64,000 bases of DNA from Amnibacterium flavum. GTDB lineage: Bacteria > Actinomycetota > Actinomycetes > Actinomycetales > Microbacteriaceae. The stretch spans positions 620,001 to 684,000 of the forward strand of contig NZ_QEOP01000002.1 of the NCBI RefSeq assembly GCF_003097495.1, written 5' to 3'. Below are positions 10,676 to 38,849 of the stretch, in pieces; position 1 is the stretch's first letter; each line of letters begins with the position of its first letter. Position numbers and translations under genes: made by a program. The notes below the pieces were generated by a model. The model searched no databases, was not told the DNA's origin, and saw nothing but the letters and a program-made list of their open reading frames with translations.

Positions 10676-10701
10676 GAAAAGTGCACAGCTATATACTTTT
10701 G
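10676..10701. promoter_or_regulatory. 26-bp operator A overlapping promoter of Gfo/Idh operon
   Basis: Half-sites GAAAAGTGC and ATACTTTTG (reverse complement CAAAAGTAT) separated by 8 bp. TATACT inside the right half is a near-ideal -10 hexamer (10692-10697), 52 bp before the gene start. Same 26-bp length and AAAAGT/ACTTTT core as the sites at 13321 and 38824. The TetR regulator encoded 2 kb downstream is the obvious candidate ligand-responsive repressor. Confidence 0.8.
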
Positions 10702-10748
10702 CTCTCAGTGCTGAGCGCTCGGCTCCGCTTTCGAGATCAGGAGGAGCC

Positions 10749-11807
10749 ATGGCTGATTCGACGATCGGTGTCGGAATTCTCGGCTGCGGACCGGTGACGC
10801 AGGCGATCCACATCCCCACGATCGACCGGATCCGCGACTCGGTGCAGGTCGTGAACGTCATGGATGTGAATGCGCAGGTCGCGGAGGCGATCGCTTCCCG
10901 GGTCGAGTCCCGGTGGACCACGAGCGCCGACGAGCTGATCGCCGACCCGGCGGTCGAGATCGTCGTCGTCTGCAGCCCGAACAAGTTCCACGCCGCCCAG
11001 GTGATCGCCGCCTGTCGCGCCGGGAAGAAGGCCGTGCTCTGCGAGAAGCCGCTTGCGCTGACCGAGGCGGAGGCACGGGAGATCGCGCAGGTCTCCGCCG
11101 AGACCGGGGTGCCGGTCGTGGTCGGTGCGATGCACACCTTCGATCCCGCGTGGCTCTCCGCGAGGGCCGAATGGGGTGATCTGGTCGAGACCGCTCACAC
11201 CATCCGGTACTCCATCGTGCTCACCCCGAACACCCGCTCCGAGGACTTCGCCTCCGAGATCTTCGGACGCCCGGGGGCGCGCATCGACGCCCGCTCCGCG
11301 GTCGACATCGCCGCCGACGTCATGCACGGCAGCATCATGGGGCTGGCCATCCACGACCTGCCGCTCGTCCGGGTGTTCTGCCCCGACTTCACCGACGTCG
11401 AGCTCCTGTCCTCCCAAGTGCTCGACCCCGGTGGATACCTCGTCAATCTGCGCGTCGGCGCCAAGAACGTTCAGCTCTACGGCCTCAACAACGAATCGTG
11501 GAGGCCCGAGTGGCGGTTCGAGGCGGTATCGGACGACACGGTTATGCGGATCGACTTCCCACCGCCCTACGTCCACGCCGGTTCCGGCGTCACCACGTTC
11601 TTCGACGGCGAGTCCACGCGCAGCTTCGGGCCCACGGGAGTGAACGGCTACGAGCGCGAATGGCGCTACGTCGCCGACCTCGCCAGAGGTGAGGCGGAAC
11701 CGCTCGATGTCTCCTACCTCGCCGACGATCTGGCCTTCGCCGTGGGCATCGCCGACGCGGCGACTGCCAACGTCCGCGCAAGGTTCGGATCCGAGGTGAC
11801 CGCATGA
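10749..11807 (+). CDS. Gfo/Idh/MocA-family NAD(P)-dependent oxidoreductase
   Basis: 352 residues. N-terminal Rossmann motif GVGILGCGPVTQAIH, then VVVCSPNKFHAAQVI and the family hallmark CEKPLALTEAEAREI containing the conserved Lys. The C-terminal domain contains the His-bearing segment IHDLPLVRVF. Enzymes of this family oxidise sugars or cyclitols at C1, C3 or other hydroxyls. Substrate unknown. AGGAGGAG precedes the ATG. The stop overlaps the start of the next ORF (ATGA), so the two products are probably made together. Transcribed from the promoter covered by operator A. Confidence 0.88.
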   Translation: MADSTIGVGILGCGPVTQAIHIPTIDRIRDSVQVVNVMDVNAQVAEAIASRVESRWTTSADELIADPAVEIVVVCSPNKFHAAQVIAACRAGKKAVLCEKPLALTEAEAREIAQVSAETGVPVVVGAMHTFDPAWLSARAEWGDLVETAHTIRYSIVLTPNTRSEDFASEIFGRPGARIDARSAVDIAADVMHGSIMGLAIHDLPLVRVFCPDFTDVELLSSQVLDPGGYLVNLRVGAKNVQLYGLNNESWRPEWRFEAVSDDTVMRIDFPPPYVHAGSGVTTFFDGESTRSFGPTGVNGYEREWRYVADLARGEAEPLDVSYLADDLAFAVGIADAATANVRARFGSEVTA

Positions 11808-12652
11808 CCGACAGCAGCACGACGACGGACGCACCAATCGCGTTCGGCGTCGACCGCCTCACGGTCACGTCGCCCGGTTCGGGCCCCTACGGAGACCCGC
11901 TTCTCGTCCTCGCGTCGCTTCCGGAGTCGCTGCATCCGGTCTCCTCGGATGCCGACCTGGTCGGTCTCCGCGGAACCGTCGGCTGGACTCGGGTCGCGCA
12001 GGGGGCCCTCGATTCCGGCGCCCGAGGCGTCGTCGTCGTCGCACCGGAACCGGTCGACCGTGATGCTCTCGTCGCGCTTGCCGACCGGAGCTCCGCGCCC
12101 GTCGTGCTCGACTCGCCGTGGGTTCACAATCCAGCGGTCTCCGCAGCTGCAGAGCACTTCCGCCGCCTGACCGGACCGAGCGCGCTGGTCGAGGCACGCG
12201 TCGAGCTGCCCCTGGCGAGCGACCTCTTCCAGGCCGCCCTCGACCAGCTGTCGCTCCTCCGCGCCGCGATCGGTCCCGTCGTCGCTCTTCGCTATCTGCG
12301 CCTCGACGGACGCGGCTACGACGCGCTCGGCACTCTGGCGGACGGCACGACCGTTAGCCTCGCGGCGATCCTCACCGGTGGCCTGCCCGCGGCGGCCACG
12401 GTGCGTCTCGTGCGCCCGACCGAGGCGGTCGAGGTTCATCTGCCCGCCCCCGACACGGCGACTCCCGGCCAGGCGATCGTGAGCGGTCCCGACGGTGCCG
12501 TCCTCCAGGTGACGAAGTACGAGTCGGCGCATCGCGCCGCGTGGCGGCGTGTCCGAGAACTCGTGCTGACCGGTGGTCGGTCGGACGACGCGCGCGGGTT
12601 CGCCGACGACCTCGACCTGCTGTCCGCGGCGGTCAGGACCGCGACCCCCTGA
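11804..12652 (+). CDS. Small partner of Gfo/Idh/MocA oxidoreductase, degenerate family member (inferred)
   Basis: 282 residues, not directly recognised. Parts align by eye with Gfo/Idh/MocA proteins: GARGVVVVAPEPVDRDAL corresponds to the VVVCSPN strand, and SAPVVLDSPWVHNPAVSAA to the CEKPLALTEAEA region. The N-terminal GxGxxG nucleotide loop and the EKP Lys are absent. It could therefore be a non-catalytic subunit or substrate-binding partner of the preceding oxidoreductase, with which it is translationally coupled by ATGA overlap. Alternatively it is an unrelated sugar-binding protein. No signal peptide. Confidence 0.55.
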   Translation: MTDSSTTTDAPIAFGVDRLTVTSPGSGPYGDPLLVLASLPESLHPVSSDADLVGLRGTVGWTRVAQGALDSGARGVVVVAPEPVDRDALVALADRSSAPVVLDSPWVHNPAVSAAAEHFRRLTGPSALVEARVELPLASDLFQAALDQLSLLRAAIGPVVALRYLRLDGRGYDALGTLADGTTVSLAAILTGGLPAAATVRLVRPTEAVEVHLPAPDTATPGQAIVSGPDGAVLQVTKYESAHRAAWRRVRELVLTGGRSDDARGFADDLDLLSAAVRTATP

Positions 12653-12686
12653 TGCCCGCCCACCACGGAGTCCCTAAACTTCTGGC

Positions 12687-13313
12687 GTGACCATCGCGAA
12701 CCCCGCCTCGAGAGACGGCCAGCCGCGCGGTCCCTACAAGCGCGGCATCGAGCGCCGGCGCCAGGTCGTCGTCACGGCGACCGACGTGTTCGGGGAGTTC
12801 GGCTTCCGCGGTGGCACGCTCCAGCAGGTCGCGGATCGCGTGGGGGGAACGCCCGCCGCGATCCTCAAACTGTTCGGCAGCAAGGAGAGGCTTCTCATCG
12901 CCGTGCTCGACCACTGGGGTTCCGTGACGGGGGAGATCGTCGCCCGGGGGACCGAGGAGCGCGCGTTCCTCGACGGCTTCGTCGAGTTGATGAACTACCA
13001 CGTGAACCACAAGGGTCTTCTCCAGCTCTACACGACGATGGCCGCGGAGGCTTCGACCCCGCAGCACCCGGCGCACGAGTTCATGACGAACCGGTACCGA
13101 CGCACCCTCGAGAGCATGCGCAACGGATTCCGTGCGGCGAGTGAGGGCGGCCACTTCCGGCGTCTCTCCGAGAAGCAGATCGCGCACGAGGCCGAATACC
13201 TGCTGGCGATCCTCGACGGTCTCGAGATCCAGTTCATTCTCAACCCGGCGTTCGACCTCGAGACGTCGTTCGCCGCCTACGTCGACACCGTCTACGAGCG
13301 ACTCGCGGTGTGA
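12687..13313 (+). CDS. TetR-family transcriptional regulator
   Basis: 208 residues. N-terminal HTH of TetR type: RRQVVVTATDVFGEFGFRGG, LQQVADRVGGTPAAILKLF and GSKERLLIAVLDHW. The ligand domain is divergent. The GTG start comes 7 nt after TAAACT (12675-12680), so the message may be leaderless and the gene could have its own promoter at the end of the operon above it. Lies between two copies of a 26-bp inverted repeat (10676 and 13321), which makes it the likely regulator of those sites. Ligand probably a sugar derivative handled by the neighbouring enzymes. Confidence 0.85.
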   Translation: MTIANPASRDGQPRGPYKRGIERRRQVVVTATDVFGEFGFRGGTLQQVADRVGGTPAAILKLFGSKERLLIAVLDHWGSVTGEIVARGTEERAFLDGFVELMNYHVNHKGLLQLYTTMAAEASTPQHPAHEFMTNRYRRTLESMRNGFRAASEGGHFRRLSEKQIAHEAEYLLAILDGLEIQFILNPAFDLETSFAAYVDTVYERLAV

Positions 13314-13320
13314 GGCTCGC

Positions 13321-13346
13321 CAAAGGTATCCGGTGAGATACTTTTG
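13321..13346. promoter_or_regulatory. 26-bp operator B overlapping thuA promoter
   Basis: Half-sites CAAAGGTATC and GATACTTTTG match as inverted repeats in 9 of 10 positions with a 6-bp centre. GATACT (13337-13342) serves as a -10 hexamer. It lies 33-58 bp before the thuA start, in the 65-bp gap after the TetR gene, and shares length and core with operators A and C. Confidence 0.8.
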
Positions 13347-13378
13347 AGAGCCTGCCCCACGATGAAGCGAGGAAGTAC

Positions 13379-14086
13379 ATGACCGACGAGAGTTCCCCGA
13401 AGCACGCCATCGTCGTCCGAGGTGGATGGGACGGCCACATGCCCGTCGAGTCGACGGAGATGTTCATCCCCTTCCTCGAGGAGAACGGCTACACGGTCGA
13501 TGTCTACGAGGACCCCGCCGTCTACGCCGACGCCGACGTCATGTCGGGTGTCGATCTCATCGTCCAGTGCAACACGATGAATGTGATACAGAAGCCCGAG
13601 ATCGCCGGCCTGCGCGCCGCCATCGAGGCGGGCACCGGCATCGCGGGCTGGCACGGCGGCATCGCCGACTCCTATCGCAACGAGGCCGACTACCTCCAGC
13701 TCATCGGCGGCCAGTTCGCGCACCACCCCGGCAAGCACCCGTCGGAGCTGATCGGCGAGCAGGTCGACAACTACATCCCCTACCGCATCGACATCACACC
13801 CCTCGGCCGCGAGCACGAGATCACGCAGGGCATCGAGGACTTCGAGCTCACGACCGAGCAGTACTGGGTTCTGAGCGACGACCTGAACGACGTCCTCGCC
13901 ACGACGACCCTCGACGCCCGCCCCTGGGACCAGTGGCAGCGCCCCGTCACGTCGCCCGCGATCTGGACGCGTCAGTGGGGCAAGGGGCGCGTCTTCGTGA
14001 GCACCGCCGGCCACCGGGTCGAGGTGCTCGAGGACCCCAACGTGCGCACGATCATCGAGCGCGGACTGCTCTGGGCCTCGCGCTGA
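13379..14086 (+). CDS. ThuA-family protein (trehalose utilisation-like)
   Basis: 235 residues with a class I glutamine amidotransferase-like (flavodoxin-like) fold. Typical ThuA segments are IVVRGGWDGHMPVEST, AGTGIAGWHGGIADSYR, FAHHPGKHP and KGRVFVSTAGHRVEV. ThuA proteins occur with ThuB-type Gfo/Idh/MocA dehydrogenases in catabolism of trehalose and other glycosides through 3-keto derivatives. The exact reaction is still debated. The next gene is such an oxidoreductase. AGCGAGGAAG provides the ribosome site. Expression should follow operator B. Confidence 0.88.
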   Translation: MTDESSPKHAIVVRGGWDGHMPVESTEMFIPFLEENGYTVDVYEDPAVYADADVMSGVDLIVQCNTMNVIQKPEIAGLRAAIEAGTGIAGWHGGIADSYRNEADYLQLIGGQFAHHPGKHPSELIGEQVDNYIPYRIDITPLGREHEITQGIEDFELTTEQYWVLSDDLNDVLATTTLDARPWDQWQRPVTSPAIWTRQWGKGRVFVSTAGHRVEVLEDPNVRTIIERGLLWASR

Positions 14087-14211
14087 TCCTCTGTGCGCGC
14101 CCGATCGCCCGGCCGACGGGTCGCGGGCGGCAGCACGGGCACGCAAGAATGCTGTAGCGCGACGTCACAGATGACCCTGCGCGAGACCAACACGATCGAT
14201 GAGGAGAACTG

Positions 14212-15378
14212 ATGGCTGCACCACTGCGGGTGGCGATGATCGGGCAGGGATTCATGGGTGCCGCGCACTCACAGGGCTGGCGGGTCGCACCGCGGTTCTT
14301 CGACCTTCCCGCCCCGGTCGAGATGGCGGTTCTCGTCGGCCGCGACGCCGGTCGAGCCGCCGATGCCGCGGCCAAGTGGGGCTGGACCGAGTCGAGCGCC
14401 GATTGGCGTGAGGTGATCGCCCGCGACGACATCGACATCGTCGACATCGTCACGCCCGGCGACACCCACGCCGAGATCGCGATCGCCGCCCTCGAGGCGG
14501 GCAAGCACGTCATGTGCGAGAAGCCGCTCGCGAACACGGTCGAGGAGGCCGAGCAGATGGCCGCGGCCGCGGAGCGCGCCGAGGCGAAGGGCATCCGGTC
14601 GATGGTGGGCTTCACCTACCGCCGGGTTCCCGCCGCGACGTTCGCTCGCGACCTCGTCGCCTCAGGTGCCGTCGGCGAGATCCGTCAGGTCCGTGCCAAC
14701 TACCTCCAGGACTGGCTGGTCGACCCCGAGGCGCCCCTCACCTGGCGTATGAAGAAGGAGCTCGCGGGCTCCGGTTCGCTGGGCGACATCGGCGCGCACG
14801 CCATCGACCTCGCCCAGTTCATCACCGGTCAGCGCCTCACGACCGTGTCGGGCATGCTCGAGACCTTCGTCAAGGAGCGCCCGCTGCTCGCCGAGGGATC
14901 CGGCCTGAGCGGAACGGCGTCCGCTGAGCGCGGAGAGGTCACCGTCGACGACCTGGCGCTGTTCACCGGCCGGTTCGACGGGGGAGCGGTCGGCTCGTTC
15001 GAGGCCACCCGCTTCAGCACCGGACGCAAGAACGCGTTCCGGATCGAGATCGCCGGATCGAAGGGTGCCATCTCGTTCGACCTCGAGGACATGAACGTGC
15101 TGAGCGTGTACGACGGGACGGCCCCAGGCGACCGGCTCGGCTTCACTCGGGTGCTCGTGACGGAGGAGGTGCACCCGTACATGGCCAACTGGTGGCCGAC
15201 GGGCCACATCATCGGTTACGAGCACGGCTTCTCGCACCAGGCGAAGGACTTCGTCGAAGCCGTTGCGAACGGCACGAACCCGTCGCCGTCGTTCGCCGAC
15301 GGACTTCAGGTGCAGCGCGTCCTCGACGCGGTCGAGCGCAGCGCCGAGTCGGGCAGCGCCTGGACTCCCACGGCGTAG
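14212..15378 (+). CDS. ThuB-like Gfo/Idh/MocA oxidoreductase
   Basis: 388 residues. Rossmann loop MIGQGFMGAAHSQGW, nucleotide-end motif TPGDTHAEIAI and CEKPLANTVEEAEQM with the conserved Lys. The catalytic-region signature GDIGAHAIDLAQFITG contains the His characteristic of the family. The length and MGAAHSQGWR start are those of the ThuB/levoglucosan-dehydrogenase-like branch, which oxidises C3 hydroxyls of sugars in intact glycosides. Follows thuA on the same strand after 125 bp and has AGGAGA before the start. Substrate remains unknown. Confidence 0.88.
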   Translation: MAAPLRVAMIGQGFMGAAHSQGWRVAPRFFDLPAPVEMAVLVGRDAGRAADAAAKWGWTESSADWREVIARDDIDIVDIVTPGDTHAEIAIAALEAGKHVMCEKPLANTVEEAEQMAAAAERAEAKGIRSMVGFTYRRVPAATFARDLVASGAVGEIRQVRANYLQDWLVDPEAPLTWRMKKELAGSGSLGDIGAHAIDLAQFITGQRLTTVSGMLETFVKERPLLAEGSGLSGTASAERGEVTVDDLALFTGRFDGGAVGSFEATRFSTGRKNAFRIEIAGSKGAISFDLEDMNVLSVYDGTAPGDRLGFTRVLVTEEVHPYMANWWPTGHIIGYEHGFSHQAKDFVEAVANGTNPSPSFADGLQVQRVLDAVERSAESGSAWTPTA

Positions 15379-15405
15379 AGCCGGGGACGCCGCTGGTTCG
15401 GAGAG

Positions 15406-15444
15406 GCGGAATGCAGGCTCCTGATGAGGAAGCCTGCGTTCCGC
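15406..15444. terminator. Strong hairpin between convergent genes
   Basis: 14-bp arms GCGGAATGCAGGCT and AGCCTGCGTTCCGC (one T/G wobble) around an 11-nt loop, followed by TTCGTT. It ends the thuA/thuB-like unit and lies 35 bp from the stop of the opposing secreted protein, so it may act in both directions. Confidence 0.82.
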
Positions 15445-15478
15445 TTCGTTCGGCATGCGTCCGAGCGGTGAGGGCCGG

Positions 15479-16615
15479 TCAGTACCAGCCGACGTCCTCC
15501 GAATGCGCCCACGCCCCGCACGGTGTTCCGTATCGACCGGCGATGTAGCCGAGACCCCAGTTGATCTGGGTGGACGAGCTGGTGCGCCAATCGGCGCCGG
15601 AGGCGGCCATCTTGCTGCCCGGAAGCGACTGCGGGATTCCGTAGGCGCCGCTCGAGGTGTTGTAGGCGTCCCATCTCCAGCCCGATTCCCGGTTCCACAG
15701 CCACACCAGGCACTGGTTCTCCGCCTCGCTCCAACCGCGCGCCCGCACCTGTCCCGCGGCGTAGGCGCGCGAATCGGCGGGGCTGAGCGAGCCGGAACCG
15801 CTCGGAGTGGTCGCCAGATCGTCGGCCGGACCGCCGGTGCTCGGCGGGGTGTAGGACTGCGCAAGGGCCTGCCCCTCGCGGAACTCCTGCTCCAGCTGCG
15901 CGGAGGTGCCCTTGAGCGAGGCGAGCTGGTCGTACAGCGTCGACGCCCGCGACTGGGCCTCGGCGACCCGCGCATCGGCGGCCTGGCGCGCGCTCTCCGC
16001 CTCGGCCGCGCTCGCGGTGGCAGCCGCGGCGAGCTGATCCCGCGCGGTCGCCGCGTCGGCTGCCTGTTCGATGAGCGCGGCGGCTCCGCTGCGCTCGTCC
16101 TCCGCCCGCTGACGCAGGGCCGCGAGCGACTCGCTGAGCTTGGTGAGATAGCCGGTCTTCGACAGGAGCATCGATGCGTCGCCGCCCGAGAGCCAGAGTC
16201 CGAGTGCGGGGTCGCCGCCACGAGCCAGACTGGCGGCGAGTGCCCCGGCCTGCTTCGTCGCCGCGGCCGCGCGGTCCTGCGCGGCAGCCGCTTCGGCCTG
16301 GAGCGACGCGAGCGACGCGTCGGCCTGGTCGGCGGCCCGCTGCGATTCCACCGCTGCCGCTGATCGGCGCACGGCCTCGTCGCCGAGGGCCGCCGCGTCC
16401 GCCTGGAGCCCGTCGAGGAGTCCCTCGATCCGGGCGGCCTCCGCCGCGGCTGCGCTCTCGTTCGCCTTCGCAGCCTCGACCTCCTCCCAGGTGGGGTAGT
16501 CATCGGCGGCGTTGGCGGGGCCGACCACGCTGACGGTCACCGCCGCGGCGCCGACGAGGGCCAGCGCGACGACGACGGTCGCGACGGACCTCAGTCGAGT
16601 TCGCCGGGAGTTCAC
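15479..16615 (-). CDS. Secreted coiled-coil protein with lytic transglycosylase-like C-terminus
   Basis: 378 residues. A Sec signal peptide ends at ANAADD (about residue 37). A long Ala/Glu coiled coil (about 40-250) resembles the N-terminal hairpin of RipA-type and FtsX-regulated cell-wall hydrolases. A Pro/Ser/Gly linker and a lysozyme-like domain follow, with catalytic Glu in LWNRESGWRWDAYN and the SSGAYGIPQSLPGSKM / NWGLGYIAGRYGTPCGAW pattern of aggregation-promoting-factor-like transglycosylases. Likely cleaves peptidoglycan at division or elongation sites. Single gene. Confidence 0.86.
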   Translation of the reverse strand: MNSRRTRLRSVATVVVALALVGAAAVTVSVVGPANAADDYPTWEEVEAAKANESAAAAEAARIEGLLDGLQADAAALGDEAVRRSAAAVESQRAADQADASLASLQAEAAAAQDRAAAATKQAGALAASLARGGDPALGLWLSGGDASMLLSKTGYLTKLSESLAALRQRAEDERSGAAALIEQAADAATARDQLAAAATASAAEAESARQAADARVAEAQSRASTLYDQLASLKGTSAQLEQEFREGQALAQSYTPPSTGGPADDLATTPSGSGSLSPADSRAYAAGQVRARGWSEAENQCLVWLWNRESGWRWDAYNTSSGAYGIPQSLPGSKMAASGADWRTSSSTQINWGLGYIAGRYGTPCGAWAHSEDVGWY

Positions 16616-16800
16616 GGCATCAGGCTAGGTCGACCCGGCTGCGCCGGGCATTTCCCCCGCGGTCGGAGACCGGATGCACAGGGATCGGGGGCTCGGCGCG
16701 TGGCGCTCGGCGGCCGGGCGGTGCTAAGACGGACGGGTGCCCGGAATCAGGCGGGCCGCACAGGCGCTCGCTCCGCGCGGCGCCGGACGAGGAGTTCTCC

Positions 16801-17733
16801 GTGCCCGCTGCTGTTGTCGCCACCGCGTTCGGCGGTCCCGAGGTGTTCGAGCTCGCCGACCTCGACACGCCCGCTCCGGGGATCGGCGAGGTGACGATCG
16901 CGGTCCGTTCAGCCGCGGTGAACCCCTCCGACATCAAGACCGCGGCGGGGGTCTTCGGTCGCAACGAGGCGAACCTGCCACTGCGGATCGGCGCCGAGGT
17001 CTCCGGTGTGATCTCGGCGGTCGGTGACGATGCAGGTCCGTTCGCGATCGGTGACGAGGTGGTCGCCTACCGGGTCCGCGGGGGCTGGTCGGCCGAGATC
17101 ACCACAGCCGCGCGCAGCGTGTTCGCCAAACCGGAGGGGTTGGGCTTCGACGCGGCGGCAGGGCTTCTCCTCGTCGGCGTCACCGCCCAGCACCTTCTGA
17201 CGGCGACCCGCGTCGGAGCGGGAGACACCGTCCTCGTCCATGGCGCTTCCGGTTCCGTCGGATCCATCGCCACCCAGCTCGCGCGCCTCGCGGGAGCGAG
17301 CGTCATCGGCACGACGAGCGATGGGGGAGCCGAGTACGTCCGCTCGCTCGGCGCGACCCCCGTGCTCTACGGCGACGGTCTGGTCGGGCGCGTCCGTGCT
17401 CTCGCGGCGCGGGTCGACGCGGCGCTCGACACGGTCGGCAGCGACCAGGCCATCGACGACTCCGTCGCACTGGTCGCCGATCGGTCCAGGATCGCGACGA
17501 TCAACGGCTTCGCGCACGGTGCCGCGGCGGGCATCCTTCTCCTGGGCGGCGGCTCGGGCGCCGACCCGGGAACGGATATCCGCAATGCGGCACGCGGACC
17601 GCTCCTCGAGCTGGCCGGTGACGGACGGGTCGTGGTGAGGCTCGGCCCTTCGTTCGCTCTCGCGGATGCCCGGGAGGCGGCGGAGCTGGTCGCCGGCGGC
17701 CACCCCGGCGGCAAGGTCGTGCTGCACCCCTGA
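16801..17733 (+). CDS. NADP-dependent quinone oxidoreductase-like MDR protein
   Basis: 310 residues, medium-chain dehydrogenase/reductase lacking the zinc ligands, as in the QOR class. GroES-like N-terminal half (AAVNPSDIKTAAGVFG) and Rossmann domain with VHGASGSVGSIATQLARLAG. The C-terminal HPGGKVVL motif is standard. Probably reduces quinones or enones with NADPH. GTG start with GAGGAG 9 nt upstream. Unrelated to its neighbours. Confidence 0.88.
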   Translation: MPAAVVATAFGGPEVFELADLDTPAPGIGEVTIAVRSAAVNPSDIKTAAGVFGRNEANLPLRIGAEVSGVISAVGDDAGPFAIGDEVVAYRVRGGWSAEITTAARSVFAKPEGLGFDAAAGLLLVGVTAQHLLTATRVGAGDTVLVHGASGSVGSIATQLARLAGASVIGTTSDGGAEYVRSLGATPVLYGDGLVGRVRALAARVDAALDTVGSDQAIDDSVALVADRSRIATINGFAHGAAAGILLLGGGSGADPGTDIRNAARGPLLELAGDGRVVVRLGPSFALADAREAAELVAGGHPGGKVVLHP

Positions 17734-17769
17734 GGTAGCGGCGTCGGGGGGCGCGGCTACGCTCGATGA

Positions 17770-19791: not shown

Positions 19792-19852
19792 CTCGGCTCC
19801 GAACCATCCCCGGCTCGAAATAATCGGTACACGAACAGGGTTTTCACCGCTG

Positions 19853-20659
19853 ATGGATACGCAGGAAGCAGGTCACCCGATGACGACGGACGAGTACGAG
19901 TCGAATCCGACCGGTCCGCTGGTGAGCGACGCGGAACTCGATCGGCGCCTGAAGGCCCGGCGGGTCGAGAACGCGGTATCGGCGTTCGGCCCGCTGGCGC
20001 TCGTCAACAGTCAGCGCATCGACGCCCCTCAGCCGGTGTGGGGGGTCCCCGGTCTCTGGTCGCCGCTGCCCGACGGCCAATCCGGCCTCCTGGTCACGGC
20101 GGAGGCCTCCGACGGGATACTCGTCGATGGCGACCCGGTCGACGGCGACGTGATCGTGGCCGGAGCGGACGCGATGGTCGCGAGCACTCTCGTCTTCGAC
20201 GACCACACCCGTGGGACGGTCGTGCGCGTCGAGGACGGCGGCTACGCGCTACGCGTCTGGGATTCCCGGTCCGAGGCTGTCGACGGCTTCCAGGGCATCG
20301 CCGCATTCGACTACGACCCGGCCTGGGTCGTTCCGGCGCGACTCGACGGCGACGAGGTCACCTTCGAGCGCGAAGGCGAATCGCACACCCTCGAAGTCCG
20401 CCGCGAGGGCAAGGCGCTGCAGCTGATCTTCTCCGACGCGACCAGCGGGGTGAGCAGCTACAGCATGGGCCGGTTCCTGTTCTTCCCGCCCAGCGAGGAC
20501 GGCGAGATCGAGCTCGACTTCAACCGCGCCGTACTGCCGCCCTGCGCGTTCAGCTACCAGTTCAGCTGCCCGATCCCTCCGGCGCGCAACCGACTCGACT
20601 TCGAGATCGCGGCGGGGGAGAAGACGGTACTGACCGTGGACGGCGACGGGCTGCACTGA
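19853..20659 (+). CDS. DUF1684 protein
   Basis: 268 residues, soluble. The C-terminal signature of DUF1684 is clear: GRFLFFPPSEDGEIELDFNR region followed by AVLPPCAFSYQFSCPIPPAR and LDFEIAAGEK. A possible second start, MTTDEYES, is 27 nt downstream and is about as plausible as the one used. Function of the family is unknown. Lies after the S9 peptidase and opposite a PadR regulator. Confidence 0.82.
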   Translation: MDTQEAGHPMTTDEYESNPTGPLVSDAELDRRLKARRVENAVSAFGPLALVNSQRIDAPQPVWGVPGLWSPLPDGQSGLLVTAEASDGILVDGDPVDGDVIVAGADAMVASTLVFDDHTRGTVVRVEDGGYALRVWDSRSEAVDGFQGIAAFDYDPAWVVPARLDGDEVTFEREGESHTLEVRREGKALQLIFSDATSGVSSYSMGRFLFFPPSEDGEIELDFNRAVLPPCAFSYQFSCPIPPARNRLDFEIAAGEKTVLTVDGDGLH

Positions 20660-20713
20660 CCCTCCGCGCCACGAGGGGAGCCTGTCGGCCGTCTGACGGA
20701 TCGGGAGTCACGA

Positions 20714-21268: not shown

Positions 21269-21324
21269 CCGCGCCTCCCTCCGCCTGTTCAGGCACCTGT
21301 TCGATGGTCGCTCAGGTGAGGGCG

Positions 21325-22152: not shown

Positions 22153-22189
22153 TGAGGTCGCGCCGCCCGCCGAAGCCCGCTCTGCTCCC

Positions 22190-28430: not shown

Positions 28431-28469
28431 CGAAACGAAAGTCGCGCTCCCGCAGCCCCGGAGTGAGAC

Positions 28470-29666: not shown

Positions 29667-29706
29667 AGCGATGCTCGTCGTCTCCGTCGTCAGCCGGGAG
29701 TCCGGC

Positions 29707-32448: not shown

Positions 32449-32885
32449 CTGCGACCTTTCTTCGAGGTGGTGGTCGAGCGCGGCGGTAAACCGCGTATCG
32501 AGATCCAAATCTCCTCCGGCCCCGCCGGAAGCCGGGCTTGTCGGATTACGACAGAACTCTCGGCCAAGAGATGAGCCTAGTCTCTCGTCGGAAGCCTCGG
32601 GGCCGCTGGAGATCGCCCGCCCGGGGTGTCCGGGGGACAGCTCTCCGTCCCCCGAAGCGACGACTTGACCGGCTGTGCCGTCGCCGCCGTTCCGCGGTCG
32701 GCAGACCTGATCGGGGGCGTTTCCCGTCCCCCGGGTGCGCGCCCCCGGTGTGTCGCCGGGCGCCCGTGCGTCGCGTGGATAGATTCCCCTCAAGAGGACG
32801 CGCTGTTCATAGCTCGGGCATAGTCGCCGGCAAGCCCGCCTCGGTCCGCTCCATCGATCCCCCCTGAAACGAACTGAGGTACGAC
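32449..32885. other. 437-bp divergent intergenic region, aceE / surface protein
   Basis: No gene seen. The aceE side has a possible -10 TAGGCT near 32575. Two GC-rich inverted stretches, CGGGGGACAGCTCTCCGTCC near 32631 (arms GGGGGAC and GTCCCCC) and CCCGTCCCCCGGG near 32728, could form hairpins. On the plus side TAGATT (32780) and CATAGT (32818) are possible -10 hexamers for the surface protein. Confidence 0.5.
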
Positions 32886-34052
32886 GTGATCAGCCCTACC
32901 CGCACGCCCTTCCGACGAGCGTCCGCTCTCGCAGTCGGAGGAGCGCTCGCCCTCGGCGGCGCCTTCGTCGCGGCCGCCCCCGCGCACGCCGTTCCGAACG
33001 AGACCTACTACGTCTACAGCACCGCCGGATTCGCGACTGCGGATGGACCTCGTTACTCCGATGGAGGAGTCGAGGTCAAGCTCTACGACCTCGACACCGA
33101 AGACCTGGTGGGTACCACCACGACGTCGCCCTACGGCGACTGGAGCTTCTCCGACGTCGTCGACGGGGACTACGTGCTGGTCTTCACGTCGAAGGACTAC
33201 TGGTACCCCGCCGACGACGAGGAGCTCCTCGTGACCGTCGAGGATGCCGAACCGGAGGTCGAGGAAGTGCTCCTCACCCCGTATCCCGAGCTCGGCGGCG
33301 GCGCGGTCACCGTGACCGGCAACCCGGTGCTCGGTGAGACCCTCACGGCGACGGTCGGGGCGTACACGGGCGCGAACAACGCCTCGGTCACCCCCGATTC
33401 GGTCGAATACTCCTGGGGTTACAGCCGCGGCGAGAGCGGCGACAGCATCGAGGGCGCGACCGGGCTCTCCGTCGTCGTCCCCGAGGAGGCCGTCGGGGCG
33501 CACATCGGCCTGAGCGCGATCGCGGAGAAGGACGGTTATTCGCCGACCATCACGGGCGGCGGTCCTGAGGCTCTCGTCTCGGCTCCCCAGAAGCCTGCTG
33601 CTCCGGCGCCCGTCGCCGACTCGTCGGGTCTCGCCGCCTTCCTGGCCGCGAACTACGCCGCGGAGTTCAGCTCCGAAGCCGTCGGTCTGCCCAAGGGCTC
33701 GCTGTCCTCGGACTCGACCTACACGGCGAAGATGGACTGGTACTCGGGTGACTCGTTCGTCGACGTCTACGCGTACTCGTCGCCCCGACTCGTCGGCACC
33801 TTCCCGGTCGTCGACGGTGTCGTCCAGGTGACCCTGACCCCCGCCATCCTCGCGATGATCGGATCCGGTTCGCACACTCTCGTCTACGTGGGCCAGAGCT
33901 CGGGTGGCGTGCAGTCCGTCGCACTCGAGATCAGCGCCGCGCTGGCCAGCACGGGTGCTGACATCACCGCGCCGCTGATCGGCGGTTCCGTGCTGCTCGT
34001 GCTCGGCGGGGTGCTTCTGGTGGCTCGTCGCCGGAAGGCCACCAAGGCCTGA
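32886..34052 (+). CDS. Secreted surface protein with LAxTG sortase signal
   Basis: 388 residues. Signal peptide ending at AHAVPNE (about residue 35). First domain is an SD-repeat/Cna B-like fold ([36 protein letters not shown]), then an Ig-like region around [18 protein letters not shown]. The C-terminus reads LASTGAD, a hydrophobic helix ([17 protein letters not shown]) and RRRKATKA, the class-E sortase sorting signal of actinobacteria. Predicted to be linked covalently to the cell wall. GTG start with GAGG upstream. No sortase gene lies in the window. Confidence 0.88.
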
Positions 34053-34064
34053 CCACTGAACTGC

Positions 34065-34096
34065 GAAGGGGCGGAGCCGGTCGGCTCCGCCCCTTC
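34065..34096. terminator. Strong hairpin between convergent genes
   Basis: Perfect 15-bp arms GAAGGGGCGGAGCCG and CGGCTCCGCCCCTTC with a 2-nt centre, 12 nt after the surface-protein stop and 25 bp from the stop of the opposing SDR. Followed by GTCATT, so little U-tract. Confidence 0.85.
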
Positions 34097-34120
34097 GTCA
34101 TTCCCGCCGAGGTGAGGAGA

Positions 34121-35080
34121 TCAGCGCGTGCGGGCGCCGACGACTCGGAGGATCGCGAGCAGCGACGCCGCGACGAGACCGGCGGAGGCGAGCCGGATCC
34201 GGCGTCTCCGACGCCATCCGCCGGAGATGCCGTTGGACTCGGGGGTCGGGGCGAACACGTTTCCGTCGCTATCGGCGACGGGGCCCTTCCGGAGTGCGAT
34301 CGCGAGGAGCGCCGGCTGGGTGAGTCGTGCGAACAGGGTGGGGAACAGGATCTGCAGCGGGATCGTCAACCGCTGCGTCTGCCCGACGACGACCTGGCGC
34401 CGCGGTCGCCTCGCGGATCTGACGATGGCCCGGGCGACTCTCTCGGGGGCGACCGCGGGCGGGAGCGCATGCACCTCCTTGCCGGTGAAATTCGCGCCGT
34501 GCTGGTAGATCGGGGTGTCGATCGTGGTGGGGAGGATCAACGACAGGCTGATGCCGCGAGGGAGTTCGGGGCGGAGCGCTTCCGCGAATCCGAGCAGACC
34601 GTGCTTGCTGGCGATGTAGCCGCTGGTGTACGGCGCGGCCACCTTCGAGAAGACGGAGCCGACGAGGATCAGCCCGCCGCGGCCCTGGGCGCGGAACACG
34701 GGGAGCACCGCCCGGACACTCGAGATCACGCCGATGAGGTTGGTGTCGATGATCTTCCGGAACACGTCGGCGGGGACATCCTCGAACCGGCCGTAGGCGA
34801 ACACCGATGCCGCGCAGACCCAGGCGTCGATCCGACCGAACTCGCTTACCGCGGCGTCGACGAGGCCCTGCACCTGCGTCTCGTCGCTGATATCGGTCGG
34901 AACGATCAGGGTGGGGGAGCCCAGCCTGCGTGTTTCGCGGGCCACGACCTCCAGGGTGCCGGCATCGCGTGAGGCGAGCACGATCCGATAGCTGTGACGC
35001 GCGAACCTCAGCGCGCTCGCGCGGCCGATCCCGCTCGATGCGCCGATGACGACGGCGACGCGGTCCTGATTCCTGGTCAC
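34121..35080 (-). CDS. SDR oxidoreductase with C-terminal membrane anchor
   Basis: 319 residues. SDR motifs VIGASSGIGRASALRF, catalytic YIASKHGLLGF with preceding SVFS, and CAAS in the NAG place. After the ~250-residue SDR domain there is an extension with ALPPAVAPERVARAIV, LTIPLQILFPTLFARL and a terminal helix after RRRRRIR (ASAGLVAASLLAIL). This layout is the short-chain SDR_c family often acting on lipids at the membrane. GTG start. Substrate unknown. Confidence 0.86.
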   Translation of the reverse strand: MTRNQDRVAVVIGASSGIGRASALRFARHSYRIVLASRDAGTLEVVARETRRLGSPTLIVPTDISDETQVQGLVDAAVSEFGRIDAWVCAASVFAYGRFEDVPADVFRKIIDTNLIGVISSVRAVLPVFRAQGRGGLILVGSVFSKVAAPYTSGYIASKHGLLGFAEALRPELPRGISLSLILPTTIDTPIYQHGANFTGKEVHALPPAVAPERVARAIVRSARRPRRQVVVGQTQRLTIPLQILFPTLFARLTQPALLAIALRKGPVADSDGNVFAPTPESNGISGGWRRRRRIRLASAGLVAASLLAILRVVGARTR

Positions 35081-35191
35081 AGTGGGGCCTCCTGGGGTCG
35101 GCCCTCACGCTAGGCGTCTGCGCAGGCCGCGTACCGTCGACCAGCACGACCGTCAGCCATTCCAGGGGCCGCTCCCAGCCCGGCGCACCGT

Positions 35192-35228
35192 GTGCGTCAG
35201 CCGAGGAGCGGGTGCGTCAGCCGAGGAG
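35192..35228. repeat. 17-bp direct repeat spanning a stop codon
   Basis: GTGCGTCAGCCGAGGAG occurs at 35192 and 35212 with 3 bp between. The right copy contains the end (codons Leu-Leu-Gly-stop) of the minus-strand DUF1345-like gene; the left copy repeats it beyond the stop. Probably a small slip duplication. Confidence 0.88.
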
Positions 35229-35909
35229 ACTGACCGCCCGCGAGATGACGAGGGCGAGGAGGACGAATCCGGCGAACGCCTCGAACCCCATCAGCGCTTT
35301 GGCGCGATGGGAGAGCGGCATCGTGTCGGTGGGGCTGAAGGCCATGGAGTTGCTCAGTGAGAAGTAGAGGTAGTCGATGAATGCGGGCACCCAGTCGGCC
35401 TTCACGGAGGAGCGGACGGCGACCTCGACGACGGCGTCGTGGTCCTCGTCCTGCGGGAACCGGAAGTCGGCGGGCTCGAGCTTGTCGCGTGCCCGGAGCC
35501 GGCGCGAGACGGGGCCGCCCCGGTCGAGTTCCCAGAAGATGAGCGCGAAGGCGATGACGTTGGTCACCCATACCTGCAGCGCCGCGAGCAGTAGAGGATG
35601 TCCGTCGTTGTTGGGCACCGTGACGAGCTGGATGACGAGCTGGACGAGCGCGACCTGGTTGGCGAGGAGCAGGACGAGTGACTGGCCGATCGACAGCCAC
35701 CGCGACCATCGCTGCTCGCGGTTCAGTCGACGGGGGTTCAGCACGACCAGGGGGATCAGGAGGACGATCCCGATCGCCAGGACGACGTAGCGCAGCTGGG
35801 GGAAGAACGAACCGGGGAGGGTCGTGTAGAGGGTGAGCGCGACGATGATCGCGAGAGCTGCGGGCCATCGCGATTCGGCAGCGGCGCGCCGCGAAGGATC
35901 CCTGGTCAT
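35217..35909 (-). CDS. DUF1345-like membrane protein
   Basis: 230 residues with about five helices: AALAIIVALTLYTTLPG, VVLAIGIVLLIPLVVL, LSIGQSLVLLLANQVAL, VWVTNVIAFALIFWELD and the last pair. The end segment FIDYLYFSLSNSMAFSPTDT and MGFEAFAGFVLLALVISRAV is the typical DUF1345 ending, which resembles a pore-loop region of two-helix potassium channels. Single gene, function unknown. Confidence 0.8.
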   Translation of the reverse strand: MTRDPSRRAAAESRWPAALAIIVALTLYTTLPGSFFPQLRYVVLAIGIVLLIPLVVLNPRRLNREQRWSRWLSIGQSLVLLLANQVALVQLVIQLVTVPNNDGHPLLLAALQVWVTNVIAFALIFWELDRGGPVSRRLRARDKLEPADFRFPQDEDHDAVVEVAVRSSVKADWVPAFIDYLYFSLSNSMAFSPTDTMPLSHRAKALMGFEAFAGFVLLALVISRAVSLLG

Positions 35910-35978
35910 GTCGCGAGCCTAGAGCCGTGCGCGGCCCGCACCTGCGTGCACCGCGGTACTAAACTCGCCCTCAGCTAA

Positions 35979-36052
35979 GGGCTCTTAGCTCAGTTGGTTA
36001 GAGCGCCACGTTTACACCGTGGATGTCGGGGGTTCGAATCCCTCAGGGCCCA
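35979..36052 (+). tRNA. tRNA-Val (anticodon TAC)
   Basis: 74-nt cloverleaf: acceptor GGGCTCT pairs with AGGGCCC (one G-U), D arm GCTCAGTTGGTTAGAGC, anticodon stem CCACG/CGTGG with loop TTTACAC giving TAC, and T arm GGGGGTTCGAATCCCTC. The 3' CCA is not encoded (sequence continues CCG after the discriminator A). Reads GTA and related valine codons. Confidence 0.96.
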
Positions 36053-36122
36053 CCGGAGGGCTACCGCCCGAGGGGCCGCCCTCAGGTGGGCCCCTGGCGC
36101 ACGCTTGCGCCGGGGATCGAGT

Positions 36123-36138
36123 CCCTCAGGGCCCACCG
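36123..36138 (+). repeat. Partial duplicate of tRNA-Val 3' end
   Basis: CCCTCAGGGCCCACCG is an exact copy of the tRNA 3' end at 36040-36055, 83 bp downstream. The stretch before it (GGGGATCGAG versus GGGGGTTCGAA) is a diverged T-loop, so about 27 bp of the tRNA 3' half is duplicated. This is the usual footprint of integrase attachment sites, but no integrase or element lies between the copies. Confidence 0.8.
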
Positions 36139-36170
36139 TGAACCGGCCGTTCGGAGAGTCGCCCGACTGC

Positions 36171-36299
36171 TCAGCGGCGGCGGCCTCGATGCTCGGGCGG
36201 CAGCGGCTTCAGGCGGAGAAACTCCCGCACCTTCTTGTTGCGCAGCACCATGCGGGCGATCGGGATCAGCACGGGCAGGAATCTCACTAGTCGGAGCAT
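36171..36299 (-). CDS. Small conserved basic protein (42 residues)
   Basis: Reads MLRLVRFLPVLIPIARMVLR, then NKKVREFLRLKP and ends HRGRRR. A hydrophobic helix followed by a strongly basic tail suggests a membrane-surface or nucleic-acid-associated microprotein. GAGAGG lies 7 nt before the ATG. Lies between the tRNA remnant and an SDR. Similar short proteins occur in Microbacteriaceae from memory; function unknown. Confidence 0.65.
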   Translation of the reverse strand: MLRLVRFLPVLIPIARMVLRNKKVREFLRLKPLPPEHRGRRR

Positions 36300-36433
36300 C
36301 AGGACCTCTCGGTTGTCGCGGGGCGGTGTCCGGCGATCTTCCCCGACTCGGGCTGGGAACCACTCGGGGGAGCCGCGTTCCGGGGGTCTGACAGGGCCTC
36401 GGAGACTTCGGAACGGCGACTTAGCGTCGCCTC

Positions 36434-37195
36434 ATGGACATCACTTCACGTTCCGTATTCATCGCCGGCGGCACCTCCGGAATCGGGCTCGAGCTGGCCC
36501 GACGCTTCAGCGCGGCAGGCAGCACCGTCGTCGTCGGCGGACGCCGCACCGACCTCTTAGAACGGCTCGACGCCGAGGGGCTCGGCACCGTCGAGATCGA
36601 CGTCACAGATCCCGAGTCGGTCACCCGCGCGCGTGACCAGGTGCTGACGCGCTTCCCGAGTATCGACACAATCGTGACCATGTCGGGGATCGGGCAGCCC
36701 GAGGATCTCCGCGACCCGGCGCACTTCGCGACGACCGAGGCGACGATCGCCGTCAACGTGCTCGGCACCATCCGCGTCGTCGACGCGTTCACACCCCACC
36801 TCATCGCGCAGGGAAGCGGCACCATCATCACCGTCAGCTCGGGCATCGGCTTCCTGCCGTTCCCGCTCATGGCGACCTATGGCGCATCGAAAGCCGCGGT
36901 CCACGCCTACAGCGAAGCACTCCGGGCACAACTCGCCGGGACGGGTGTCGAGGTCGCCGAGCTCGTTCCGCCCGCGGTGGCGACCGACTTCGGACCGAGC
37001 AACCCGCACGCGCTCCCTCTGGACGACTACGCGACAGAGGTCATGGGACTGCTCGCGCAGCAGCCGACCCCGCAGGAGATCCTCGTGCAGGGCGTGCTCA
37101 TGCACCGGTGGGCCGAGCGGGACGGCACCTACGCCGCACTCGTCGAGCAGCGGTCGAGGGCCCTCGCCGGTCTGCCCGGCCGGTCACGGGACTAG
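36434..37195 (+). CDS. DltE/SDR-family oxidoreductase
   Basis: 253 residues. Nucleotide motif IAGGTSGIGLELARRF, SGIG in the NAG region, catalytic Ser in TVSSGIGFLP and Tyr/Lys in YGASKAAVHAYSEAL. The layout (SSG-GF-P-YGASKAA, PPAVATDF) belongs to the DltE-like SDR group. The start follows TAGCGT (36422-36427) by 6 nt, a leaderless pattern. The next gene, an XRE/MmyB regulator, starts 10 bp after its stop; such regulator-SDR pairs are common in actinobacteria, so it is probably the regulated gene. Confidence 0.88.
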   Translation: MDITSRSVFIAGGTSGIGLELARRFSAAGSTVVVGGRRTDLLERLDAEGLGTVEIDVTDPESVTRARDQVLTRFPSIDTIVTMSGIGQPEDLRDPAHFATTEATIAVNVLGTIRVVDAFTPHLIAQGSGTIITVSSGIGFLPFPLMATYGASKAAVHAYSEALRAQLAGTGVEVAELVPPAVATDFGPSNPHALPLDDYATEVMGLLAQQPTPQEILVQGVLMHRWAERDGTYAALVEQRSRALAGLPGRSRD

Positions 37196-37204
37196 CGTGC
37201 CGGT

Positions 37205-38035
37205 ATGAGCGACGAATCGAACGAGAACCGGTTGGGCGCGTACCTGCGCGCCCGGCGCGGTCTCGTCTCGCCGGAACAAGCGGGCCTGCCCCCGGGCGGC
37301 TTCCGGCGCGTGCCCGGGCTGCGCCGTGAAGAGGTCGCCATGCTCGCGGGCATCAGCGCCGACTACTACCTGCGCCTCGAACGCGGACGCGACGCCCACC
37401 CGTCCGGCCAGGTGCTCGATGCCCTGGCGCGAGTCCTGCGCCTCGACGACGTCGAACGCGACTACCTGCGCGGGCTCGTCGAAACGGGGCCGCGGCCTCG
37501 CACCCGGCAGGGGATCGTCGAGCGGGTGCCCGCCCGCCTGCACGAACTGCTGGCGGGGATCGGACTCCCGGCCTTCATCGAAGGCCGCGCCTACGACGTC
37601 CTCGCGGCGAACGAACTCGCGACCGCCCTGTCACCCCGGATCCGGCCCGGCGAGAACCGACTCCGCTCGCTCTTCCTGGACCCCGAGGAGCAGTCGTTCC
37701 AGAAGGACTGGGCGGCGTCGTCCGCGGAGTTCATCGCCGCATTCCGGCAGTCGGTGGGCGACGACAACGACGATCCTCGATTCGTCGAGCTCGTCGGTGA
37801 GCTGTCGCTGTCCAGCGGGCGCTTCCGTGAGCTGTGGGCGCGGCACGACGTGCGGATGCTCGAAGGCGGGACCACGACCGTCGACCACCCGGTCGTGGGT
37901 GAACTGCGACTCCACCGCGACAAGTTGCCTGTCGAGGGCCTGATCCTCGTCATCTACTACGCCGATGCGGGGAGCGAGAGTGCTGAGAAGCTCGAACTCC
38001 TCGCCTCACTCGCGGCCCAGGGGCCGCTCGTCTGA
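37205..38035 (+). CDS. XRE-family regulator with MmyB-like ligand domain
   Basis: 276 residues. Helix-turn-helix with VPGLRREEVAMLAGISADYY and LRLERGRDAHPSGQVLDAL, then the MmyB-like PAS-type domain (RAYDVLAANELATALSP, ENRLRSLFLDPE, FRQSVGDD, WARHDVRMLEGGTTTVDHP, GELRLHRDKLPVEG). This family often regulates an adjacent SDR and binds a fatty-acid-like ligand. TAGCGT at 37194-37199, 5 nt before the ATG, indicates a further promoter. Confidence 0.9.
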   Translation: MSDESNENRLGAYLRARRGLVSPEQAGLPPGGFRRVPGLRREEVAMLAGISADYYLRLERGRDAHPSGQVLDALARVLRLDDVERDYLRGLVETGPRPRTRQGIVERVPARLHELLAGIGLPAFIEGRAYDVLAANELATALSPRIRPGENRLRSLFLDPEEQSFQKDWAASSAEFIAAFRQSVGDDNDDPRFVELVGELSLSSGRFRELWARHDVRMLEGGTTTVDHPVVGELRLHRDKLPVEGLILVIYYADAGSESAEKLELLASLAAQGPLV

Positions 38036-38053
38036 CCGTCCGCCCGGGGCCCC

Positions 38054-38323
38054 TCAGCCGATGACTTCGGCGACGACCTGCCGCCAGTCGTCGTCGGACA
38101 CGACCTGACGGGACGGGTCGAAGTTGTCGGCCACGAACTTGCCCTCGCGTCGGCTGATGTGCGCGATCAGCGCCTCCTCCGCGTGGAGGGTCCAGGTCGG
38201 TTCCGCGTCCTCCGAGCCGTCGGCGCGGATCGTGTGCTGGACGCCGTCGCGCCAGAAGGTCGCCTCACCGGTCTCGGGGATCTCGATGTCGTCGACGCCG
38301 GGCTGGCCGTTCTCGTTGCTCAT
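38054..38323 (-). CDS. Small acidic hypothetical protein
   Basis: 89 residues, acidic. Begins MSNENGQPGVDDIEIP, contains ATFWRDGVQHTIRADGS and LHAEEALIAHISRREGKFV, ends DDWRQVVAEVIG. A WRDGVxHTIR beta-hairpin and two helices are likely. No known family recognised. Convergent with the MmyB-type regulator, 18 bp between stops. Confidence 0.62.
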   Translation of the reverse strand: MSNENGQPGVDDIEIPETGEATFWRDGVQHTIRADGSEDAEPTWTLHAEEALIAHISRREGKFVADNFDPSRQVVSDDDWRQVVAEVIG

Positions 38324-38493
38324 GCGCGCACACTATGCCTCACCGGCGACGACCGGCAATCATCTGCTGCACCGGGAACTCCCACCCGCCAGTCAGCCTG
38401 GGGGAGGGGCAGCCAGGCCGTTGGCCAGGTGAGTGGCGCACTGTTGTCGCCTCGGTCCCACATCCGGTGCCGTGCACCGAGCAGGAGTTCCCT

Positions 38494-38658
38494 TTGTCCT
38501 CGCCCGCACTGACTTCCGCGCTTCGCCAGCAGCGGATCATGCAGTGGGTGACGCCCGCCGTCACCGCAGTCCTGATCGTCCTCGCAGCCCAGCAGGGTGA
38601 GCAGCAGCGCGAATCCGTCGATCTGCTCCACCGGGTCAAGGGCGTCTTCTCCCGCTGA
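38494..38658 (+). CDS. Small membrane protein (54 residues, TTG start)
   Basis: Reads SSPALTSALRQQRIMQWV, then helix TPAVTAVLIVLAAQQGEQQR and tail ESVDLLHRVKGVFSR. AGGAG lies 8 nt before the TTG start. One membrane-spanning helix, N-terminus inside. Codon use fits coding. Function unknown. A longer frame upstream (to 38335) lacks a ribosome site and coding character. Confidence 0.55.
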   Translation: MSSPALTSALRQQRIMQWVTPAVTAVLIVLAAQQGEQQRESVDLLHRVKGVFSR

Positions 38659-38679
38659 GCCCACCCCTTCCGGGTGTGT

Positions 38680-38719
38680 GACCGGTGCACGGCGGCCCCG
38701 TCGTCATCGCGCACCGGTC
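38680..38719. terminator. Inverted repeat after small membrane protein
   Basis: GACCGGTGC and GCACCGGTC, perfect 9-bp arms with a 22-nt loop, 22 bp after the small ORF and 100 bp before the operator-controlled isomerase. Could be a terminator or a protein site. The U-tract is missing. Confidence 0.45.
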
Positions 38720-38823
38720 GAGCAGGATCGTGTTCGACATTCCTCGCAGCAGGGTGCGACCGTCCCGCCCGCAGCGCGGAAGCCGCTCGCAGGGAGACGG
38801 AAGATCAGCCGATGCCTATCGGT

Positions 38824-38849
38824 GAAAAGTGTTCGGAAATACACTTTTC
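38824..38849. promoter_or_regulatory. 26-bp operator C, perfect, overlapping isomerase promoter
   Basis: GAAAAGTGT and ACACTTTTC are perfect 9-bp inverted half-sites around 8 bp. TACACT (38840-38845) serves as the -10, 6 nt before the ATG at 38852, so the mRNA is leaderless and the operator covers the whole core promoter. Same length and core as sites at 10676 and 13321, 25-28 kb away. Best-conserved of the three. Confidence 0.85.

Follow-up and report, generated by a model that had tools for sequence, protein, structure and literature searches.

The window analysed here is a 64,000-nucleotide stretch of the Amnibacterium flavum genome (contig NZ_QEOP01000002.1, forward-strand positions 620,001 to 684,000), and coordinates below are positions within it unless a genome or locus is named. 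It holds a cluster of genes for a TetR-family regulator, two Gfo/Idh/MocA oxidoreductases, a ThuA-domain protein and a partner protein of one of the oxidoreductases, together with a gene for a xylose-isomerase-like enzyme 25 kb away. Three 26-bp sites with a common sequence precede these genes, and on the strength of sequence comparisons we consider it very probable that they form one TetR regulon for the catabolism of a sugar derivative, at whose operators the regulator would bind and repress. The features are as follows.

10676..10701, + strand: operator 1, 5' of the Gfo/Idh/MocA gene, with TATACT at 10692-10697; exact pattern match, conserved in Naasia
10749..11807, + strand: Gfo/Idh/MocA oxidoreductase, first gene behind operator 1 (PF01408, E=1.6e-23; GxxGxG and Glu-Lys-Pro intact)
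11804..12652, + strand: partner gene, in ATGA overlap with the preceding gfo/idh; predicted Gfo/Idh fold without the N-terminal nucleotide-binding motif and the catalytic lysine
12687..13313, + strand: TetR-family regulator that is proposed to repress at each of the operators (PF00440, E=3.2e-08); co-occurs with the operator
13321..13346, + strand: operator 2, between tetR and thuA, with GATACT at 13337-13342; exact pattern match, conserved in Naasia
13379..14086, + strand: ThuA-domain protein (PF06283, E=2.2e-45)
14212..15378, + strand: second Gfo/Idh/MocA oxidoreductase (PF22725, PF01408 and PF02894)
38824..38849, + strand: operator 3, perfect 9-bp inverted repeat, with TACACT at 38840-38845; exact pattern match
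38852..39703, + strand: xylose-isomerase-like TIM-barrel enzyme, a candidate for the role of 3-keto-glycoside beta-eliminase or epimerase (PF01261, E=5.4e-20)

An earlier note on this DNA, made from the letters alone, had reported three 26-bp sites and assigned the genes around them. The sites proved exact in letters and coordinates (GAAAAGTGCACAGCTATATACTTTTG at 10676-10701, CAAAGGTATCCGGTGAGATACTTTTG at 13321-13346 and GAAAAGTGTTCGGAAATACACTTTTC at 38824-38849), and Pfam agreed with the assignments, placing the genes behind the two cluster sites in the GFO_IDH_MocA and ThuA families and the gene behind the third site in AP_endonuc_2 (xylose-isomerase-like TIM barrel), and finding a TetR_N domain (PF00440, 33.7 bits against a cut-off of 24) in the protein encoded between operators 1 and 2. 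All three operators are intergenic and share the symmetrical pattern AAARGTRY-N8-RYACYTTT; the start codon that follows lies 48 nt away from operator 1, 33 nt from operator 2 and 3 nt from operator 3. The 9-bp arms agree at 6/9 positions in operator 1, 8/9 in operator 2 and 9/9 in operator 3, which alone among the three is the perfect inverted repeat that the note had described. Upstream of operator 1 lies another perfect 9-bp inverted repeat (AGCCCCGGG/CCCGGGGCT at 10643-10668), between an aldehyde dehydrogenase gene and the operator; the upstream transcript possibly ends there, although the repeat has no T run and is not called as a terminator.

Palindromy by itself is common in this DNA. 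Because 29 of the 63,975 26-bp windows in the stretch score 8 or 9 of 9, we rejected palindromy alone as evidence; the non-chance part is the common sequence of the three sites. The half-site consensus of the earlier note (SAAARGTRY and its inverse) does single out three places in the window, giving six strand matches at up to 3 mismatches against a shuffle mean of 0.09. In the whole 3.57-Mb genome the symmetrical pattern occurs at three places with 0 mismatches and at none with 1, where about 0.002 exact matches would be expected from a first-order model of the window's intergenic DNA; one extra place appears at 2 mismatches, and the reversed control has two places at up to 2. The version with a fixed right arm, AAARGTRY-N8-RYACTTTT, finds exactly these three places at up to 2 mismatches (reversed control, one), and a relaxed pattern finds three perfect matches, no place with 1 mismatch and five with 2 (reversed control, four at up to 2). 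Since reversed controls reach similar numbers, we treat the 2-mismatch matches as background and rejected further regulon members in this genome on that ground. The genome-wide scan proposed in the earlier note, which had named scattered hits outside promoters as evidence against its prediction, found zero other matches at 0 or 1 mismatch.

We compared nine Naasia genomes, counting the window's genome as one. A TetR homologue with 72-77% identity is present in four of the eight other genomes searched, and a site at up to 1 mismatch is found in five of the nine, namely the window's own genome and the four with a close TetR, and in no others. At the position of operator 1, all four of these other genomes carry a site at 0-1 mismatch 5' of the gfo orthologue. 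Across the five genomes, 14/24 columns of operator 1 are invariant, compared with 1/60 in each of its upstream and downstream flanks, and 16/24 columns of operator 2 are invariant (15/16 in the arms), compared with 1/60 and 0/60; mean pairwise identity is 0.78 for operator 1 and 0.80 for operator 2 versus 0.30-0.32 in the flanks. These counts come from ungapped comparison with equal 60-nt flanks, from which conservation shifted by gaps could escape. We made that comparison because gapped alignments had unequal flanks (in the alignment for operator 2, the G005 piece was only 54 nt long), a bias towards finding the invariant columns within the operator; with that bias, the gapped alignments agree, with 14/20 and 16/18 of their invariant columns inside operators 1 and 2. 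Both operators are conserved islands in their intergenic regions in the five Naasia genomes.

We then asked how the site and the regulator are distributed in a sample of 398 Microbacteriaceae genomes. TetR is found at E<=1e-40 in 24 of these. A gap in similarity separates 11 close homologues (E<=3e-63) from 13 distant ones (E 5e-50 to 2e-41), a split made post hoc with the list already seen. A site at up to 1 mismatch is present in 9/11 close-TetR genomes and 0/13 distant ones (68/398 overall). Exact sites occur in only 9/398 genomes, comprising 7/11 with a close TetR and 2/387 others, whereas the reversed control occurs in 0/398. Among the fetched loci, 10/20 contain a site with no more than 1 mismatch, and sites recur near tetR in Naasia, Planctomonas, Amnibacterium, Curtobacterium and four Sinomonas species. 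Of the 17 tetR genes with at least 50% identity, 14 are accompanied in the fetched flank by a site with 0 or 1 mismatch (that of Sinomonas albida lies inside the tetR frame as called). At two Planctomonas-type loci the intergenic site has 2 mismatches, and for the last, in Amnibacterium assembly G295, the sites are found on a different contig, close to the genes for the isomerase, gfo and the partner. The tally of 25 matches against 0 for the reversed control in 17 sources (the window and 16 loci) is biased, as the loci were mostly picked for seen sites; the unbiased counts are those of the 20-locus set and the two family-wide counts, at up to 1 mismatch and exact. This co-occurrence, together with the closeness of sites to the gene, supports assigning the operators to the TetR protein.

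In Naasia relatives the same operators also precede sugar-type ATP-binding cassette (ABC) transporter operons. In G005 (L069:10490-15103) an exact operator is followed by genes for a pair of ABC permeases, a GH10 glycoside hydrolase and a zinc dehydrogenase, a cluster that hints at a plant-polysaccharide-linked substrate. Two Naasia genomes, G003 and G007, have a second tetR paralogue beside its own variant site, AAAGGTAAAAGGTGACATACCTTT (L072:7273-8004 and L073:5302-6076); the L072 site precedes an ABC solute-binding-protein gene. It is possible that these variants reflect operator divergence after duplication.

The link between the isomerase and the cluster, which the earlier note had drawn from the third operator, is borne out independently by the sister genomes. 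An isomerase orthologue (E<=1e-40) is present once each in five of the nine Naasia genomes, which are exactly those with a close TetR. Four of these genomes (G003, G004, G005 and G007) have it near tetR and downstream of operator 2, with thuA intervening in G005 and G007, and in Amnibacterium it adjoins gfo. Among the five Naasia genomes with the gene, only that of the window has it 25 kb off and behind its own operator. Relocation in the window's genome is the most likely explanation, although its direction is inferred: the gene would have moved 25 kb out of the cluster and, because it stands behind its own operator, would have kept its co-regulation. The start of the gene is consistent with its recapture by a new promoter-operator, which may be leaderless. 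Most relatives' proteins begin with M-N-x-ISFMGAN or something close to it (in G003 the start is called further upstream, and G007 has M-D-N-K-ISF); the window's protein has a proline at the relatives' start position, and its frame opens 11 residues earlier, at the ATG at 38852, which lies 6 nt after the TACACT hexamer. A leaderless isomerase transcript is possible. An empty-site comparison did not find the original site of the gene: the downstream major facilitator superfamily (MFS) gene has a close relative (73%, at E<=1e-100) solely in G008, and since the 19-kb neighbourhood of that relative has no other gene of the comparison set in common, the original site is not demonstrable.

By sequence, the isomerase has only weak relatives among solved structures. 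Its structural model, built from five sequences, reached a predicted local distance difference test score (pLDDT) of 74.8 (five models, 45.6-74.8) and matches sugar epimerases and, lower down, DgpB-C, which we take to be a C-glycoside deglycosidase. Beyond the isomerase gene there is a perfect 10-bp inverted repeat (AAACCTCCGG/CCGGAGGTTT at 39784-39814), whose hairpin takes in GGAGG, the ribosome-binding sequence for the MFS gene at 39820; the folding of this leader is only modestly better than that of shuffled sequences (z -1.76), and Rfam gives it no match at gathering score. The window also contains an RNase P class A RNA (53889-54269) and a transfer RNA (35979-36052).

The earlier note had each operator overlapping a -10 hexamer. 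The hexamers TATACT, GATACT and TACACT are indeed present, each at site positions 17-22, and a tabulation of 15 Naasia sites places ACTTTT at 20-25 and, at 17-22, TATACT or a hexamer one base different from it. This table omits the two tetR-paralogue sites, and four sites between divergent genes, whose orientation was chosen by the analyst, are excluded from the count of asymmetry; of the 11 Naasia sites whose orientation is unambiguous, 10 have the better -10 in the downstream arm and one is a tie. As no sigma-70-type promoter with two hexamers was found in the regions scanned, the -10 assignment draws on position and conservation.

We propose that the TetR protein, encoded in the operon behind operator 1, binds the three 24-26 bp palindromic operators, and that its binding, with the downstream arm holding a -10-like hexamer, would block RNA polymerase. 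A regulator bound over the -10 suggests repression. Three units would be repressed: gfo/idh with the partner and tetR; thuA, possibly together with the second gfo/idh; and the gene of the isomerase-like enzyme. Because tetR is the third gene behind operator 1, negative autoregulation is likely. Release would come with a pathway intermediate or substrate. The second gfo/idh (14212-15378) follows thuA after a 125-nt gap, with no operator of its own in the window, and is possibly co-transcribed with thuA; its orthologue belongs to the tetR cluster of G003, G005 and G007. Its closest solved chain is 4h3v (E=1.2e-168), followed by 6a3f (E=4.1e-92), which we take to be a levoglucosan dehydrogenase and which the structure match names only a putative dehydrogenase.

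The partner gene (11804-12652) had zero Pfam or NCBIfam matches at E<=0.001, and its profile gave no match to solved structures. It adjoins the orthologue of gfo (10749-11807) in 11/11 aligned sequences, from the window and ten named loci. An AlphaFold2 model from 11 sequences (pLDDT 78.8, with residues 1-47 at low confidence) matches Gfo/Idh structures, with KijD10 as its best Foldseek match (E=7.8e-09, TM-score 0.60 by query, root-mean-square deviation 6.0), so that a Gfo/Idh fold is predicted; sequence support is weak, the profile comparison giving a probability of 17.5% (E 0.0014). While the GxxGxG and Glu-Lys-Pro motifs of the neighbouring dehydrogenase are invariant in 11/11 aligned sequences, the Glu-Lys-Pro lysine is absent from the partner in 11/11, its column holding A, E, D, R or S. 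The simplest reading of the model and alignment is that the partner would serve as a non-catalytic subunit.

Several observations weigh against a single repressed regulon for a sugar derivative. Operator 1 is clearly an imperfect palindrome, at 6 of 9 arm positions. Matches at up to 1 mismatch in 59/387 genomes without a close TetR amount to a sizeable background, and the Fisher p of 3.9e-11 for exact sites (7/11 against 2/387) is overstated because the genomes are related and the test treats them as independent. The asymmetry of the -10 is weak or absent outside Naasia and at the two Naasia tetR-paralogue sites. The regions scanned yielded no sigma-70-type promoter with both hexamers and none with a consensus -35, and a promoter of the latter kind was rejected accordingly. 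No transporter lies behind any of the three operators in the window's genome. For one of the zinc alcohol dehydrogenases in the relatives' clusters the genome offers no close orthologue (with the cut-off at E 1e-20, the best match is 29% and contains a stop; the relatives' second such dehydrogenase was not searched), and the relatives' second TIM-barrel enzyme has an 83% identical orthologue in another ABC-transporter cluster (G000:C1:919046-920044, L152), which contains no site within 3 mismatches. The pathway thus looks incomplete within the regulon.

One alternative accepts the operators as real and has them bound by another regulator, for example of LacI or IclR type, with tetR a mere neighbour. 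A LacI gene is near the sites in G007 and an IclR gene near those in G005, and the two exact sites without a close TetR are in G103, beside LacI-like and permease-like genes, and G166, in an intergenic gap (both by eye). Yet the G007 LacI protein is unmatched in nine named-relative loci, all of which have tetR (the IclR protein was not tested there), none of the 13 distant-TetR genomes has a site at up to 1 mismatch, and the tetR paralogues of G003 and G007 adjoin their own variant site; we regard this alternative as improbable. That the regulon comprises the two cluster sites alone, with the isomerase site a look-alike or disused, would fit the location of the isomerase 25 kb off among genes of other families and of a site abutting its start codon. 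It is very improbable, however, given that this site is the best palindrome of the three and an exact match in a genome with three such, and that the isomerase is a cluster member in 4/4 sister genomes that have it. Most TetR proteins are repressors, and although promoters without a consensus -35 may be a mark of activation, an operator covering a -10-like hexamer is consistent with occlusion, and we give little credence to an activating or dual role. The earlier note's prediction of a single regulon across the three units is well supported by site rarity, conservation, co-occurrence with tetR and the presence of the isomerase in the sisters' tetR cluster.

As to what this TetR regulon might degrade, the proteins would most likely oxidise, beta-eliminate or isomerise, and reduce in sequence, acting on a glycoside or cyclitol-like sugar via a keto-sugar. 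The glycoside or 3-keto-sugar pathway of the earlier note is plausible and supported in part: no regulon protein scores above an NCBIfam cut-off, and one zinc dehydrogenase of the relatives lacks a close orthologue. Steps of oxidation, beta-elimination, hydration and reduction are described for levoglucosan in the portions consulted of PMC7676230 and PMC10066097, and for O-glycosides in those of PMC10628242. Breakdown of levoglucosan itself, as by LgdA, B1, B2 and C of Bacillus smithii, is suggested by the two Gfo/Idh proteins and the PF01261 enzymes (~275 and ~333 aa in relatives), which resemble the lgd set in family and size as far as those parts of PMC7676230 and PMC10066097 describe it. 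But the second Gfo/Idh falls below the levoglucosan dehydrogenase cut-off (NF052479, 374.9 bits for 14212-15378 and 53.4 bits for 10749-11807 against 650), on which score membership of the Lgd pathway was rejected, and it is nearer 4h3v than 6a3f. Neither ThuA nor the Gfo partner is named as a levoglucosan pathway part in the portions consulted of PMC7676230 and PMC10066097, and of the two PF01261 enzymes that an Lgd cluster would hold, one is behind operator 3 and the other is on contig C1 without an operator. Levoglucosan is thus an unlikely substrate. A fuller picture, in which an apparently unreported TetR regulon serves deglycosylation by oxidation and beta-elimination, an intact Gfo/Idh is complexed with a dead Gfo-fold partner, and a moved gene has been kept by its own operator copy, is one we offer tentatively, as possible rather than probable.

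These findings provide a specific operator-regulator pair that is cheap to test in a little-studied genus, and they link a TIM-barrel enzyme that would otherwise be an orphan with a defined set of genes. They also present a clear natural case of a dispersed gene bearing its regulon's operator, and a protein family (11804-12652), without Pfam or NCBIfam match, that travels with a dehydrogenase.

The system is a new instance of a well-known kind, with the dispersed gene behind its own operator and the conserved Gfo-fold protein without catalytic residues as extras. Local regulons of TetR-family repressors with palindromic operators over the promoter are known in general, and the present one resembles them in its TetR_N domain, its inverted-repeat operator near the regulator gene and the overlap with a -10-like hexamer; unlike them, it controls a sugar-derivative cluster and one dispersed target gene. 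ThuA and ThuB act in the use of trehalose-type 3-keto-disaccharides. Their pairing of a ThuA-domain protein with a Gfo/Idh dehydrogenase is found here too, whereas the regulator is of the TetR family and no transporter stands behind an operator; with ThuA (PF06283) present and none of the three operators before a transporter gene, the regulon departs from a ThuAB trehalose system with its dedicated ABC transporter. In the open-licence literature, as far as the texts were available in part, we found no description of an AAARGTRY-N8-RYACYTTT operator or its regulator (subscription papers and regulon databases were outside the scope). The LgdA-LgdB1-LgdB2-LgdC set, in the parts consulted of PMC7676230 and PMC10066097, is alike in its Gfo/Idh dehydrogenases and PF01261 enzymes and, when the relatives are considered, ABC transporters, and unlike in that the present cluster has ThuA and an unusual Gfo-fold partner, with the second TIM-barrel enzyme off the regulon. 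The Agrobacterium operon for beta-elimination of 3-keto-O-glycosides (GlycDH, AtOGE, AtHYD and Gfo), in the portion consulted of PMC10628242, likewise combines oxidoreductases and sugar-isomerase-like proteins in one operon, a likeness drawn by family.

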